The position numbers and the translations under genes are program-made. Below, in pieces: positions 6,345 to 10,754 of a stretch of 34,631 nucleotides of DNA. Source of the stretch: Rhizobacter sp. (lineage in GTDB: Bacteria; Pseudomonadota; Gammaproteobacteria; Burkholderiales; Burkholderiaceae_C); the NCBI GenBank assembly GCA_017881025.1, contig JADGRJ010000014.1, positions 1 to 34,631 on the forward strand. Direction: 5' to 3'. The notes under the pieces were generated by a model that was given only the letters and a program-made list of their open reading frames with translations, was not told the origin of the DNA and did not search any database. How positions within the stretch are numbered: position 1 is the stretch's first letter; each line of letters starts with the position of its first letter.

Positions 6345-7646
6345 ATGCCCGACCACCGCTTCCAGCCCGAGACGCTCGCGATCCACGCCGGCCAGATCCC
6401 CGACGCCGCGACCGGAGCGCGCGCGTTGCCGATCTACCAGACGACGAGCTTCGTCTTCGACAGCGCCGACCACGCCGCGAGCCTGTTCAACCTGCAGACC
6501 TTCGGCAACGTCTACTCGCGCCTGTCCAACCCGACCGTCGCCGTCCTCGAGGAGCGCGTCGCCGCGCTCGAGGGCGGCCGCGCCGCGCTGGCGTCAGCGA
6601 GCGGCATGGCGGCCGAGGCGATGGCGCTCTTGACGCTGCTGCAGCAGGGCGACCACGTCGTCGCGGCCGGCGCGCTCTACGGCGGCAGCGTCAGCATGCT
6701 CGCCGTCAATCTGGCCAGGCTCGGCATCGAGACGACCTTCGTCGACGCGAGGTCGATCGACGCCTTCGCCGCGGCGATGCGGCCGACGACGCGCGCCGTC
6801 TTCGCCGAAAGCCTCGGCAACCCGAGCCTGCAGGTGCTCGACATTGCCGCCGTCGCCGCAGTCGCGCACGGGCACGGGGTGCCGCTCGTCGTCGACAACA
6901 CGGTGCCGTCGCCGTTCCTGTGCAACCCGATCCGTTTCGGCGCCGACATCGTCGTCCATTCGGCGACCAAGTACCTCGGCGGCCACGGCACGACGCTCGC
7001 CGGCGTGATGGTCGAAAGCGGCCGCTTCCCGTGGGACAACGGCAAGTTCCCGGGGATGACCGAGCCGTCGAAGGGCTACCACGGCGTCAGGTTCTTCGAG
7101 ACCTTCGGCGACTTCGGCTTCACGATGCGCGCGCGCATGGAGACGCTGCGCGTCTACGGTGCCGCCCTCGCGCCGACGAGCGCCTGGCAGATCTTGCAAG
7201 GCATCGAGACGCTGCCGCTGCGCATGGAGCGCCATTGCGCCAACGCCCTCGCGGTCGCGCGCTTCCTCGAGGCGCATCCGCGCGTCGGCTGGGTCAACTA
7301 CCCGGGCCTGCGCGAGCATGCGGATCACGCGCTCGTCGCCAGGCAGATGCGAACGGTGGGCGAGACGCCGGGCGCATCGGGCCTGCTCGCGTTCGGCGTC
7401 AAGGGCGGCCTCGCCGCCGGCGTCCGCTTCATCGAGGCGGCGCAGCTCATGAGCCACCTCGCCAACATCGGCGACACGCGAACCCTCGTCATCCATCCGG
7501 CGTCGACGACGCATCGCCAGCTCGACGAGGCGCAACAGCTCGCGGCCGGCGTGGCGCAGGACATGGTGCGGATCTCGGTCGGCCTCGAGCACGTCGACGA
7601 CATCCTCTGGGACATCGACCAGGCGCTCGCCGCCGTGGCTGCCTAG
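6345..7646 (+). CDS. metY: O-acetylhomoserine sulfhydrylase (O-acetylhomoserine aminocarboxypropyltransferase)
   Basis: A PLP enzyme of the Cys/Met metabolism family that forms homocysteine from O-acetylhomoserine and sulfide (direct sulfhydrylation). The 433-residue length fits MetY better than the shorter (roughly 380-400 residue) cystathionine enzymes. Diagnostic segments are the N-terminal ETLAIHAGQ, YQTTSFVF, YSRLSNPT, LVVDNTVPSPFLCNPI and the Schiff-base lysine in HSATKYLGGHG (K209). The C-terminus has the family LVIHPASTTH followed by VRISVGLEHVDDI. MetY-type length and the FPGMTEPSKGYHG insert argue against cystathionine gamma-synthase. It follows the CoA-binding gene closely and precedes the TM2 protein by 18 bp. 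Confidence 0.94.
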   Translation: MPDHRFQPETLAIHAGQIPDAATGARALPIYQTTSFVFDSADHAASLFNLQTFGNVYSRLSNPTVAVLEERVAALEGGRAALASASGMAAEAMALLTLLQQGDHVVAAGALYGGSVSMLAVNLARLGIETTFVDARSIDAFAAAMRPTTRAVFAESLGNPSLQVLDIAAVAAVAHGHGVPLVVDNTVPSPFLCNPIRFGADIVVHSATKYLGGHGTTLAGVMVESGRFPWDNGKFPGMTEPSKGYHGVRFFETFGDFGFTMRARMETLRVYGAALAPTSAWQILQGIETLPLRMERHCANALAVARFLEAHPRVGWVNYPGLREHADHALVARQMRTVGETPGASGLLAFGVKGGLAAGVRFIEAAQLMSHLANIGDTRTLVIHPASTTHRQLDEAQQLAAGVAQDMVRISVGLEHVDDILWDIDQALAAVAA

Positions 7647-7664: not shown

Positions 7665-9080
7665 ATGTCGCCCCCACCGAGCTCCGTTCCGGCGCCGGTG
7701 GCGATCGCGCCGCAGCGCGAGGACAGGCGCCTCAAGGCGCTCGGTCTCGTCCTGCTCGCCGCCGGCGGTGCCTGCCTGGCCTGGCTCTCGAACCATCTGA
7801 GCGTTGAGTGGCCGGTCTCGCCGGCGCGTTTCGCCGTGTTCGCGGCGATCTGCGTGATGGCGGCGAACCTGCTCGCGGTCGGCCTCCTCGTCCTTGCCGC
7901 CGGTTGCGGCAAGACCCACTCGGCGAGCGCGCCGGGCCGCCGTCGCGCTGCCGTACTGCTGCGCATCGTCCTCGCCAACGTGCTCGCGCCCGCTGTGCTG
8001 TTCACGATCATCAGCCAGGATCCCGAGCTCGCTGCCGAGGCCGAGCGGCAAGGCTGGGACGCGTGGGTGGCGGGCATTTCGGCCGCACTGCTCGTGATCG
8101 GGTGGCGCCTGTGGCGGCGCAGCCGGCAGTACGGCGCGCTCGGCGCCGACGAGGCGATGGCGCGCGACCGGCGCGCGCCTGTGCTCTATCTGCGCTCTTT
8201 CGTCGACGATGGCGAGGCGGTCATCGACGGCAGCGTCTCGGCGCTGGTCCGGCGCGGCACGAAGATCTTCGCTCCCGTCACTCCCGAGCAGGAGATGGCG
8301 GAGATCCTCGCCCACGTCGGCCCCGTGGTGGCGATCGGCAAGCCCGGCGAGCCGTTGCCCGAGCTCGGCGCGGCGCGGCTCTACGTCTCCGACGACCAAT
8401 GGCAAGCCAAGGTCATCGAGCTGATGGACAAGGCCGCGCTGGTCGTGATCCGGCTCGGCGCTTCGCCCGGGCTGCTCTGGGAAATCGAGCAGTCGCTCGA
8501 AAGGCTGCCGCGGCGGCGGATCATCTTCGCCGTCCTCGGCAGCGCGGCGCTCGCGCCCGCGCTCGCGGCACGCCTGGCCGCCGTTCTCGGCCCGACGTTC
8601 GAGCTCGTGCTGCCGCAGCCGGCCCCGGTCGGCTGGCTGGCCGCGCTGTACCGGGACCCGCGTCGTCGCATCGGCGGCTTCGTCTGCTTCGCCGCCGACG
8701 CCACCGCATGCGCCGTTCCGGTTCAACTCTGGCCCATGCACTGGCAGGACGTGCCTTATCTGGTGATGGCGCGACCTTCGGCCGCGCCGCTGCGTCGCGC
8801 CTTGCGCGAGGTCTTCGCCCGGCTCGAGCTGCCCGGCTCCGACAGCGCCGGCCGCTCCCGCGCGGTCGCCGCGCTTCTGGCGGTCTTCTTCGGCTGGTCC
8901 GGGGCGCACTGGTTCTATCTCGGCCGGCGCCGCCTGGGCGTGATCTACATCCTGACGATCCCGCTCCTGTTCGCGCCGCTCTTCCTCGGTTTCTGGGACG
9001 CCTTTCGTTTCATCTGGATCGATCGCGCCGAGTTCGACTCGCGTTTCTCCGCCCTCGGCAGCACCTCGCCCGGCGCGTAA
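7665..9080 (+). CDS. Multi-pass membrane protein with an RSFxDD cytosolic domain and a C-terminal TM2 domain
   Basis: I do not know a named function. The 471 residues begin with four predicted membrane helices (about 24-42, 55-80, 94-116, 133-150). A soluble alpha/beta region follows, starting APVLYLRSFVDDGEAV and containing ARLYVSDDQWQAKVIELM and then VVIRLGASPGLLWEIEQSL. That order of motifs resembles TIR/SEFIR-like or nucleotide-binding folds, but this is my inference. The C-terminus (about 400-455) is a TM2 domain: two hydrophobic helices around the signature GWSGAHWFYLGRRRLG and a following WDAFRFIWID. It starts 18 bp after metY and ends 27 bp before the acyl-CoA ligase, so it may be part of a longer transcript. 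No enzymatic residue can be assigned with certainty. Confidence 0.75.
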   Translation: MSPPPSSVPAPVAIAPQREDRRLKALGLVLLAAGGACLAWLSNHLSVEWPVSPARFAVFAAICVMAANLLAVGLLVLAAGCGKTHSASAPGRRRAAVLLRIVLANVLAPAVLFTIISQDPELAAEAERQGWDAWVAGISAALLVIGWRLWRRSRQYGALGADEAMARDRRAPVLYLRSFVDDGEAVIDGSVSALVRRGTKIFAPVTPEQEMAEILAHVGPVVAIGKPGEPLPELGAARLYVSDDQWQAKVIELMDKAALVVIRLGASPGLLWEIEQSLERLPRRRIIFAVLGSAALAPALAARLAAVLGPTFELVLPQPAPVGWLAALYRDPRRRIGGFVCFAADATACAVPVQLWPMHWQDVPYLVMARPSAAPLRRALREVFARLELPGSDSAGRSRAVAALLAVFFGWSGAHWFYLGRRRLGVIYILTIPLLFAPLFLGFWDAFRFIWIDRAEFDSRFSALGSTSPGA

Positions 9081-9107: not shown

Positions 9108-10754
9108 ATGAATCCATACGAGCAGGGGCTGGGCAAGACCGGCGCGAACTTCGTGGCGCTGTCGCCGACCAGCTTCGTCGAGCGCAGCGCCGAGGTGTTC
9201 GGCGACCTCGAGGCGGTAGTCCATGGCCGGCGCCGCTACACCTGGCGCGAGACGCGCGACCGCGCGGCGCGGCTCGCCGCCGCCTTGCGCTCGTTCGGCG
9301 TCGGTCGTGGCACGACCGTGAGCGCGATGCTCCACAACACGCCCGAGATGGTCGAGGCGCACTACGCGGTGCCGGCGTTGAACGCCGTTCTCAACACGCT
9401 CAACACGCGCCTCGACGCGGCGCTCATCGCCTGGCAGCTCGACCACTGCGAGTGCGCGGTGCTGATCACCGACCGCGAGCTCGTGCCGACCGTCGGCCCG
9501 GCGCTGCGCATCCTGGCCGAGACGCATGGCCGAAGGCCTGTCGTCATCGACGTCTGCGACAGCGAATACGCCGGCGCCGGCGATCGTCTCGGCGCGCACG
9601 AGTACGAGGCGCTGCTCGCGGCGAGCGATCCGCTGCCGGCGCTCGGGGGTCCGGCCGACGAGTGGGACGCGATCGCGGTCTCGTACACGTCGGGAACGAC
9701 GGGCGACCCGAAGGGCGTCGTCACCCACCACCGGGGCGCCTACCTGAACGCGGTGTGCAACGCGGCGACCTGGACCATGCCGCACTTCCCGCGCTATCTC
9801 TGGACGCTGCCGATGTTCCACTGCAACGGCTGGTGCTTCCCGTGGACGGTGGCGCTGCTCGGCGGCACGCACATCTGCCTGCGCCGGGTCGACGCGGCGT
9901 CGATCCTGGCGGCGATGCGCGATGAGCGCGTCGACCACTACTGCGCCGCGCCGATCGTCCACAGTCTGTTGATCGGCGCGCCGGAGGCGTCGCGCGCTGG
10001 CATCACGCAGAAGGTGAGGGCGATGGTCGCGGGCGCGGCGCCGCCGGCGTCGATGATCGAGGGCATGGCGCGGATCGGCTTCGACATCACCCATGTCTAC
10101 GGTCTGACCGAGGTCTATGGCCCGGCGGCGGTGGCGGTGAAGCGGCAGTCGTGGCAGGACGAGGCGCTCTCCGAGCAGACCCGGCTGAACGGCCGCCAGG
10201 GCGTTCGCTATGTGCTCCAGGAGGCGATGACGGTGCGCGACCCGGTGACGCTCGCCGAGGTGCCTGCCGACGGCCAGACGATGGGCGAGATCATGTTCCG
10301 CGGCAACATCGTCATGAAGGGCTACCTGAAGAACGCGAAGGCGACCGCCGAGTCGTTCGCGGGCGGCTGGTTCCACACCGGCGACCTTGCCGTGCTCGAG
10401 GCCGACCGCTACGTCAAGATCAAGGACCGCAGCAAGGACGTCATTATCTCGGGCGGCGAGAACATCAGCTCGATCGAGGTCGAGGACGCGCTCTACCGCC
10501 ACCCCGACGTCCTGGCCTGCGCGGTGGTCGCCCGGCCCGATGCGAAGTGGGGCGAGACGCCGCTCGCCTTCGTCGAGCTGAAGGAAGGCGCCGGCGTCAC
10601 CGCGGCCGAGCTGGTCGCGCACTGCCGCCAGCTCCTCGCCGGCTACAAGGTGCCGCGCGAGATCCGCTTCGAGCCGATCCCGAAGACGTCGACCGGCAAG
10701 ATCCAGAAGTTCCAGCTGCGCCAGCGTGCCCGCTCGGCGGCGGCGTTCGAATAG
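9108..10754 (+). CDS. Acyl-CoA synthetase (AMP-forming)
   Basis: An ANL-superfamily ligase that activates a carboxylic acid with ATP and joins it to CoA. The 548-residue protein has the phosphate-binding loop SYTSGTTGDPKG, the A5 segment HVYGLTEVYG, and the GGWFHTGDLA, RSKDVIISGGENISSIEVE and PKTSTGKIQK blocks with the C-terminal catalytic lysine. The sequence resembles the medium-chain fatty acid / 3-methylmercaptopropionate (DmdB-like) ligase group. The substrate is not determined by what I can see; acetate is unlikely because the protein is far shorter than acetyl-CoA synthetase. It is followed after 20 bp by a crotonase-family gene, consistent with an acyl-CoA pathway. Confidence 0.92.
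   Translation: MNPYEQGLGKTGANFVALSPTSFVERSAEVFGDLEAVVHGRRRYTWRETRDRAARLAAALRSFGVGRGTTVSAMLHNTPEMVEAHYAVPALNAVLNTLNTRLDAALIAWQLDHCECAVLITDRELVPTVGPALRILAETHGRRPVVIDVCDSEYAGAGDRLGAHEYEALLAASDPLPALGGPADEWDAIAVSYTSGTTGDPKGVVTHHRGAYLNAVCNAATWTMPHFPRYLWTLPMFHCNGWCFPWTVALLGGTHICLRRVDAASILAAMRDERVDHYCAAPIVHSLLIGAPEASRAGITQKVRAMVAGAAPPASMIEGMARIGFDITHVYGLTEVYGPAAVAVKRQSWQDEALSEQTRLNGRQGVRYVLQEAMTVRDPVTLAEVPADGQTMGEIMFRGNIVMKGYLKNAKATAESFAGGWFHTGDLAVLEADRYVKIKDRSKDVIISGGENISSIEVEDALYRHPDVLACAVVARPDAKWGETPLAFVELKEGAGVTAAELVAHCRQLLAGYKVPREIRFEPIPKTSTGKIQKFQLRQRARSAAAFE

Follow-up and report, generated by a model that had tools for sequence, protein, structure and literature searches.

A membrane protein with a TIR/NDT-like domain and a C-terminal TM2 domain in Rhizobacter sp.

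Within a 34,631-nucleotide stretch of Rhizobacter sp. DNA (hereafter, the window), one gene encodes a 471-aa membrane protein that joins a TIR/NDT-like Rossmannoid domain, covered by no curated model, to a TM2 domain. Relatives of its soluble domain occur in several phyla and lie next to TIR genes far more often than expected, while the window copy itself is an accessory gene standing alone. Our favoured explanation, to which we give slightly less than an even chance, is that this inner-membrane protein is accessory and of the conflict type, acting as a membrane-tethered nucleotide enzyme.

The gene is an intact ORF with an ATG start, and its GC3 of 0.89 is of the coding type and close to that of the neighbouring genes; full-length homologues of its product are 33-53% identical. 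An AlphaFold2 model based on a 57-row alignment shows four N-terminal helices (predicted at residues 17-47, 53-80, 90-118/120-128 and 131-156), followed by an alpha/beta domain whose pLDDT is mostly >90, then a beta hairpin and, at the C-terminus, two further helices. Pfam places TM2 (PF05154) at residues 396-436 with E=1e-10 and 42.1 bits, against a cut-off of 27.9. Model and Pfam match agree on the layout of four N-terminal helices, soluble region and TM2 domain that an earlier note on this DNA had proposed. On the DNA, the features are arranged as follows.

6345..7646, plus strand: upstream gene for a MetY-like PLP enzyme of Cys/Met metabolism, from Pfam; outside the system, flanks the insertion site
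7665..9080, plus strand: whole gene, 4TM - TIR/NDT-like domain - beta hairpin - TM2, 471 aa
7713..8132, plus strand: N-terminal membrane region with four predicted TM helices, residues 17-156, from the model and the charge pattern
8157..8624, plus strand: TIR/NDT-like Rossmannoid domain, about residues 165-320, from conservation, model and profile comparison
8478..8486, plus strand: W272-E273-I274, with E273 aligned to the TIR catalytic glutamate and invariant in 60/60 rows
8667..8726, plus strand: beta hairpin C-terminal to the domain, residues 335-342 and 348-354, from AlphaFold2
8850..8972, plus strand: TM2 domain PF05154, residues 396-436, from Pfam
9108..10754, plus strand: downstream neighbour, AMP-binding acyl-CoA ligase, from Pfam; outside the system, flanks the insertion site

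The loops carry four K/R and no D/E (residues 81-97), one K/R and four D/E (118-130), and six K/R and three D/E (150-172), a charge bias from which we predict that the N-terminus and the soluble domain are cytoplasmic. The motifs singled out in the earlier note are all present, with RSFVDD at residues 177-182, RLYVSDDQWQ at 238-247 and LGASPGLLWEIE at 264-275. In a Pfam search of the protein to E=1, TM2 was the sole match, leaving the soluble part without any model; this domain is likewise unmatched in NCBIfam and PADLOC, which makes it unnameable in the sense of the note.

Modelled alone, because helices diluted the Foldseek search with the full-length model, the domain adopts a Rossmann-like fold (pLDDT 86, pTM 0.84). 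The top Foldseek probabilities against the PDB (0.94-0.99) belong to DNPH1/RCL 2'-deoxynucleotide N-hydrolases, with E-values of 0.016-0.05 and TM-scores of about 0.3/0.45; these scores are modest, and no PDB match to the domain model reached E<=0.001. A viral TIR/WD40 protein occupied rank 32, and many other Rossmann folds were returned, including YgdH (prob 0.57) and CinA. By structure, the likeliest neighbours are DNPH1/RCL enzymes and not TIRs.

Profile comparison with hhalign gives a weak similarity to TIR, suggestive rather than certain, provided that the alignment is trimmed to its core: the TIR signal depends on the alignment limits, giving P=4e-5 (probability 70%) for TIR_2 with the trimmed core and P=0.028, not above the control, with untrimmed flanks. 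The trimmed core also matched DUF4062 (P=3e-4), followed by NDT (P=0.006) and by two unrelated Rossmannoid controls, response regulator (0.016) and LOG (0.034), with reversed-profile decoys at P 0.16-0.49. Over 25 random subsamples, scores were 25-37 for TIR, 13-25 for response regulator, 13-22 for LOG and at most 18 for reversed TIR; the median P for LOG was 0.15. In the TIR alignment, E273 lies in register with the catalytic glutamate, where the helix that follows strand D begins. The reference pairs TIR-DUF4062 and TIR-NDT gave P=2e-9 and P=0.004, respectively, because of which the domain family appears, at the level of profiles, nearer to TIR than NDT is, less clearly than DUF4062.

No TIR family was among the 25 listed of the 33 Pfam families matched by 57 members (E<=0.1), and the soluble domain left the NDT model PF05014 unmatched. 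We speak of a TIR/NDT-like domain, not of a TIR domain. The earlier note had likened the region to a TIR/SEFIR-like or nucleotide-binding fold. Its TIR-like and nucleotide-processing part is sustained by the TIR_2 match, the register of E273 and the DNPH1/RCL similarity; for SEFIR there was no Pfam match at E<=1, and for the SLOG fold that it listed for comparison, the LOG profile (a SLOG-type control) was no better than controls. Two sets of matches were discarded: de novo TIM barrels in the PDB, which are short designed repeats hitting one loop of the domain profile by chance, and Orai and tetraspanin, which the full-length profile found through TM composition.

A collection scan, queried with a three-row alignment (the initial eight-row alignment was too diverse), located 71 genome loci encoding the soluble domain in Acidobacteriota, Pseudomonadota, Thermodesulfobacteriota, Actinomycetota, Bacteroidota and Planctomycetota. 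Its occurrence is sporadic, with 5 of 399 genomes in the order of Rhizobacter sp. and 18 of 199 in a Streptomyces-containing order. A few actinobacterial plasmids carry it, as does one viral contig; this being the only match of the viral scan, we rejected the idea that the domain is phage-borne as a rule. L176, R177, F179, W246, W272 and E273 are invariant across 60 diverse rows, D182, E208, G235, A236 and R238 are kept in 57-59 of them, the GxPGE loop (225-229) is strongly conserved, and Y240 and G265 are further invariant or near-invariant positions. Such conservation over diverse rows would befit an active site.

Most members have TM segments ahead of the domain, and many also have one behind it. 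TM2 is found in exactly 7 of the 57 members scanned, which form one clade (support 99/98); the fusion thus has a single origin, and the clade is labelled as three phyla, a spread possibly inflated by MAG binning. As side observations, the loci L053, L057, L084 and L092 each encode two domain-family proteins close together, and a divergent branch (L019, L020, L022) carries an LLLRVFG...WQATV...VVMDLRGF...CEFEL motif behind many TM helices. This branch, apparently a second membrane family related to the first, has one member in the Rhizobacter sp. genome itself, on contig C248; the same genome holds a further homologue of the window protein on C151 (E=2e-47), that on C248 being remote.

The earlier note had also asked whether homologues lie near defence or metabolic genes, and some lie near TIR genes. 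We detected TIR genes with a local profile seeded partly from the same homologue neighbours, and most were confirmed with Pfam TIR_2. For 34 loci, chosen with part of the context already known, the genome was scanned with TIR_2. A TIR gene was present in 11 of these loci, where the number of TIR genes in each genome predicted 0.5 (P about 6e-13). Because that choice followed a partial view of the context, the test was extended to all 71 loci, not all of them independent: 13 had a TIR gene where about 0.9 would be expected (P about 1e-11), and the excess persisted at a five-fold background density (P=6e-4). In the other 58 loci, the flanks examined (up to 6 kb) contained none. Close same-strand TIR pairs were seen in L024, L037, L048 and L066, from three phyla. 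In L024, a TIR-NB-ARC-WD40 gene and a TM2-type homologue are at most about 45 bp apart; in L030, the homologue is surrounded by three TIR genes, and L062 includes a SLATT_1 effector-type gene.

Several neighbours deserve mention in their own right. In genome G352, the convergent neighbour at L017:23-1237 is similar to 2TM effectors of the DUF4231/SLATT type, with a score under the Pfam cut-off. Three Bacteroidales loci have a 112-114 aa protein directly upstream (L066:3167-3502, L048:5379-5720, L068:5371-5706); these proteins are 37-46% identical, have no Pfam match and are candidates for a dedicated partner. In the small Bacteroidota genome of L048 (G446), all TIR_2 matches listed cluster in a single island that surrounds the homologue (contig C5, about 254-280 kb). 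Distant homologues in L027 and L031 have LOG-family-like genes directly downstream in convergent orientation (L027:6936-7739 and L031:6764-7798, both minus strand), possibly by chance.

The window copy has a different setting. It sits 18 bp from the MetY-like gene and 27 bp from the acyl-CoA ligase gene, and we detected no TIR gene in the window; the excess of TIR neighbours supports the signalling or defence link suggested in the earlier note for the family as a whole, not for this copy in particular. A metabolic link to MetY and the ligase was rejected because in three congeners the two genes are adjacent, with gaps of about 50-90 bp and without the gene between them. In a fourth congener (G002) the gene is broken, with a frameshift, a deletion spanning roughly residues 320-419 and a Cys in place of R238. 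The gene has therefore been recently gained or lost within the genus; as an accessory gene that was gained and is decaying, it stands outside the metabolic run.

In active TIR, DUF4062 and NDT/DNPH1 enzymes, a glutamate of this kind cleaves N-glycosidic bonds. Some TIRs resemble NDT and DNPH1 in their active sites (PMC11204291). Because the invariant charged cluster plus glutamate suggests a nucleotide pocket, and such a glutamate serves those enzymes in catalysis, we favour a membrane-tethered nucleotide enzyme in conflict systems. The four TM helices and the C-terminal TM2 hairpin would hold a cytoplasmic Rossmannoid domain, probably of the TIR/DUF4062/NDT assemblage, at the membrane. There R177, D182, GxPGE, R238 and E273 would form a putative nucleotide-binding pocket and, by analogy, the domain may cut NAD+ or some other nucleotide at its N-glycosidic bond. 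It would do so once its own membrane region or a partner, in many cases a TIR protein, is triggered, and the outcome would be nucleotide signalling or depletion. As its relatives so often neighbour TIR immune-type genes, the TM2-bearing protein may belong to a bacterial conflict or defence system as yet unrecognised. More tentatively, membrane-tethered TIR/NDT enzymes of multiple phyla could form defence modules with TIR-STAND, TIR-FGE and TIR-WD40 proteins, with the TM2 clade as a self-contained membrane effector version.

The same layout of TM helices and a nucleotide fold would also suit a sensor that binds a TIR-made signal, whereupon the helices open or disrupt the membrane. For such logic there is the precedent of Thoeris, in which a TM-macro ThsA effector is paired with the TIR-domain protein ThsB (PMC11204291). 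The directly adjacent TIR genes of L024, L037, L048 and L066 fit it, and a conserved glutamate pocket may be retained for binding. Nevertheless, an invariant glutamate is easier to reconcile with catalysis than with a sensor pocket that drifts, the window copy and many homologues have no adjacent TIR gene, and the ThsA and ThsB models of PADLOC match neither the 471-aa protein nor the family, so that we regard a sensor as rather unlikely.

A little less probable still is an ordinary regulatory or stress-related membrane protein without a part in defence, whose TIR neighbours would reflect common residence in variable regions. TM2 proteins are common, and mostly without known role. The 58 loci lacking a TIR neighbour agree with this, as does a window gene that is closely packed between metabolic genes and matches them in GC; against it stand the persistence of the TIR excess at the five-fold density, the close same-strand pairs in three phyla, and the absence of the gene from three congeners and its decay in a fourth, contrary to a core role. 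Finally, the domain might be of LOG/SLOG or generic Rossmann type with a convergent resemblance to TIR, as the YgdH and CinA folds in Foldseek and the LOG-like genes beside two homologues could suggest. With a LOG match no better than controls, weaker still over the subsamples, and the PGGxGT motif missing from the 471-aa protein, we consider this very improbable.

TIR-type domains are central to the immunity of bacteria, plants and animals. New branches are still emerging, and the DUF4062 family, in a 2026 preprint, illustrates that unrecognised TIR-like families can prove to be antiphage NADases (PMC13174449). If our favoured reading of a membrane-tethered enzyme is true, a conserved, membrane-bound, TIR-linked branch would be an effector type missed by current defence finders, and it is directly testable via one glutamate. 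In the body of papers searched, none joined 'TIR domain' with 'TM2 domain'; the 'Tir' of PMC11237479 is that of the CesT/Tir chaperone and unrelated.

Among known systems, the TIR domains (PF13676/PF01582, STIR clan) are the best profile partner: they share the glutamate at the catalytic position and arrange the elements around the W...(G)xxxE region in the same order, and their genes are frequent neighbours of the family. Unlike the TIR_2 set, the family has a long conserved GxPGEPLPxLGAAR loop; it also differs in its strand 1 motif YLRSFxDD, in being membrane-embedded on both sides, in being without a match in Pfam down to E=1 and in the preference of Foldseek for DNPH1. The DUF4062 TIR-like NADases (Swarozyc, PMC13174449), second in the profile comparison, show that a TIR-like family with a conserved glutamate and a defence context can go unrecognised, but are another sequence family, and the main text of that report mentions no transmembrane part. 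NDT and DNPH1-RCL have the highest Foldseek probability and, in the NDT sequences compared, the same G-x-x-aromatic-E spacing at the catalytic helix; they are, however, soluble enzymes, with a profile P near controls and E-values of 0.02-0.05. Thoeris with TM-macro ThsA (PMC11204291) likewise combines a TIR gene with a TM nucleotide-domain protein, as in some homologue loci, yet its domain is different, PADLOC is blind to the family, and a TIR gene is missing from the window and most loci. With TM2 proteins (PF05154), the protein shares a bona fide C-terminal TM2 hairpin, whereas its fusion to a TIR/NDT-like domain is limited to one clade of seven sampled members.
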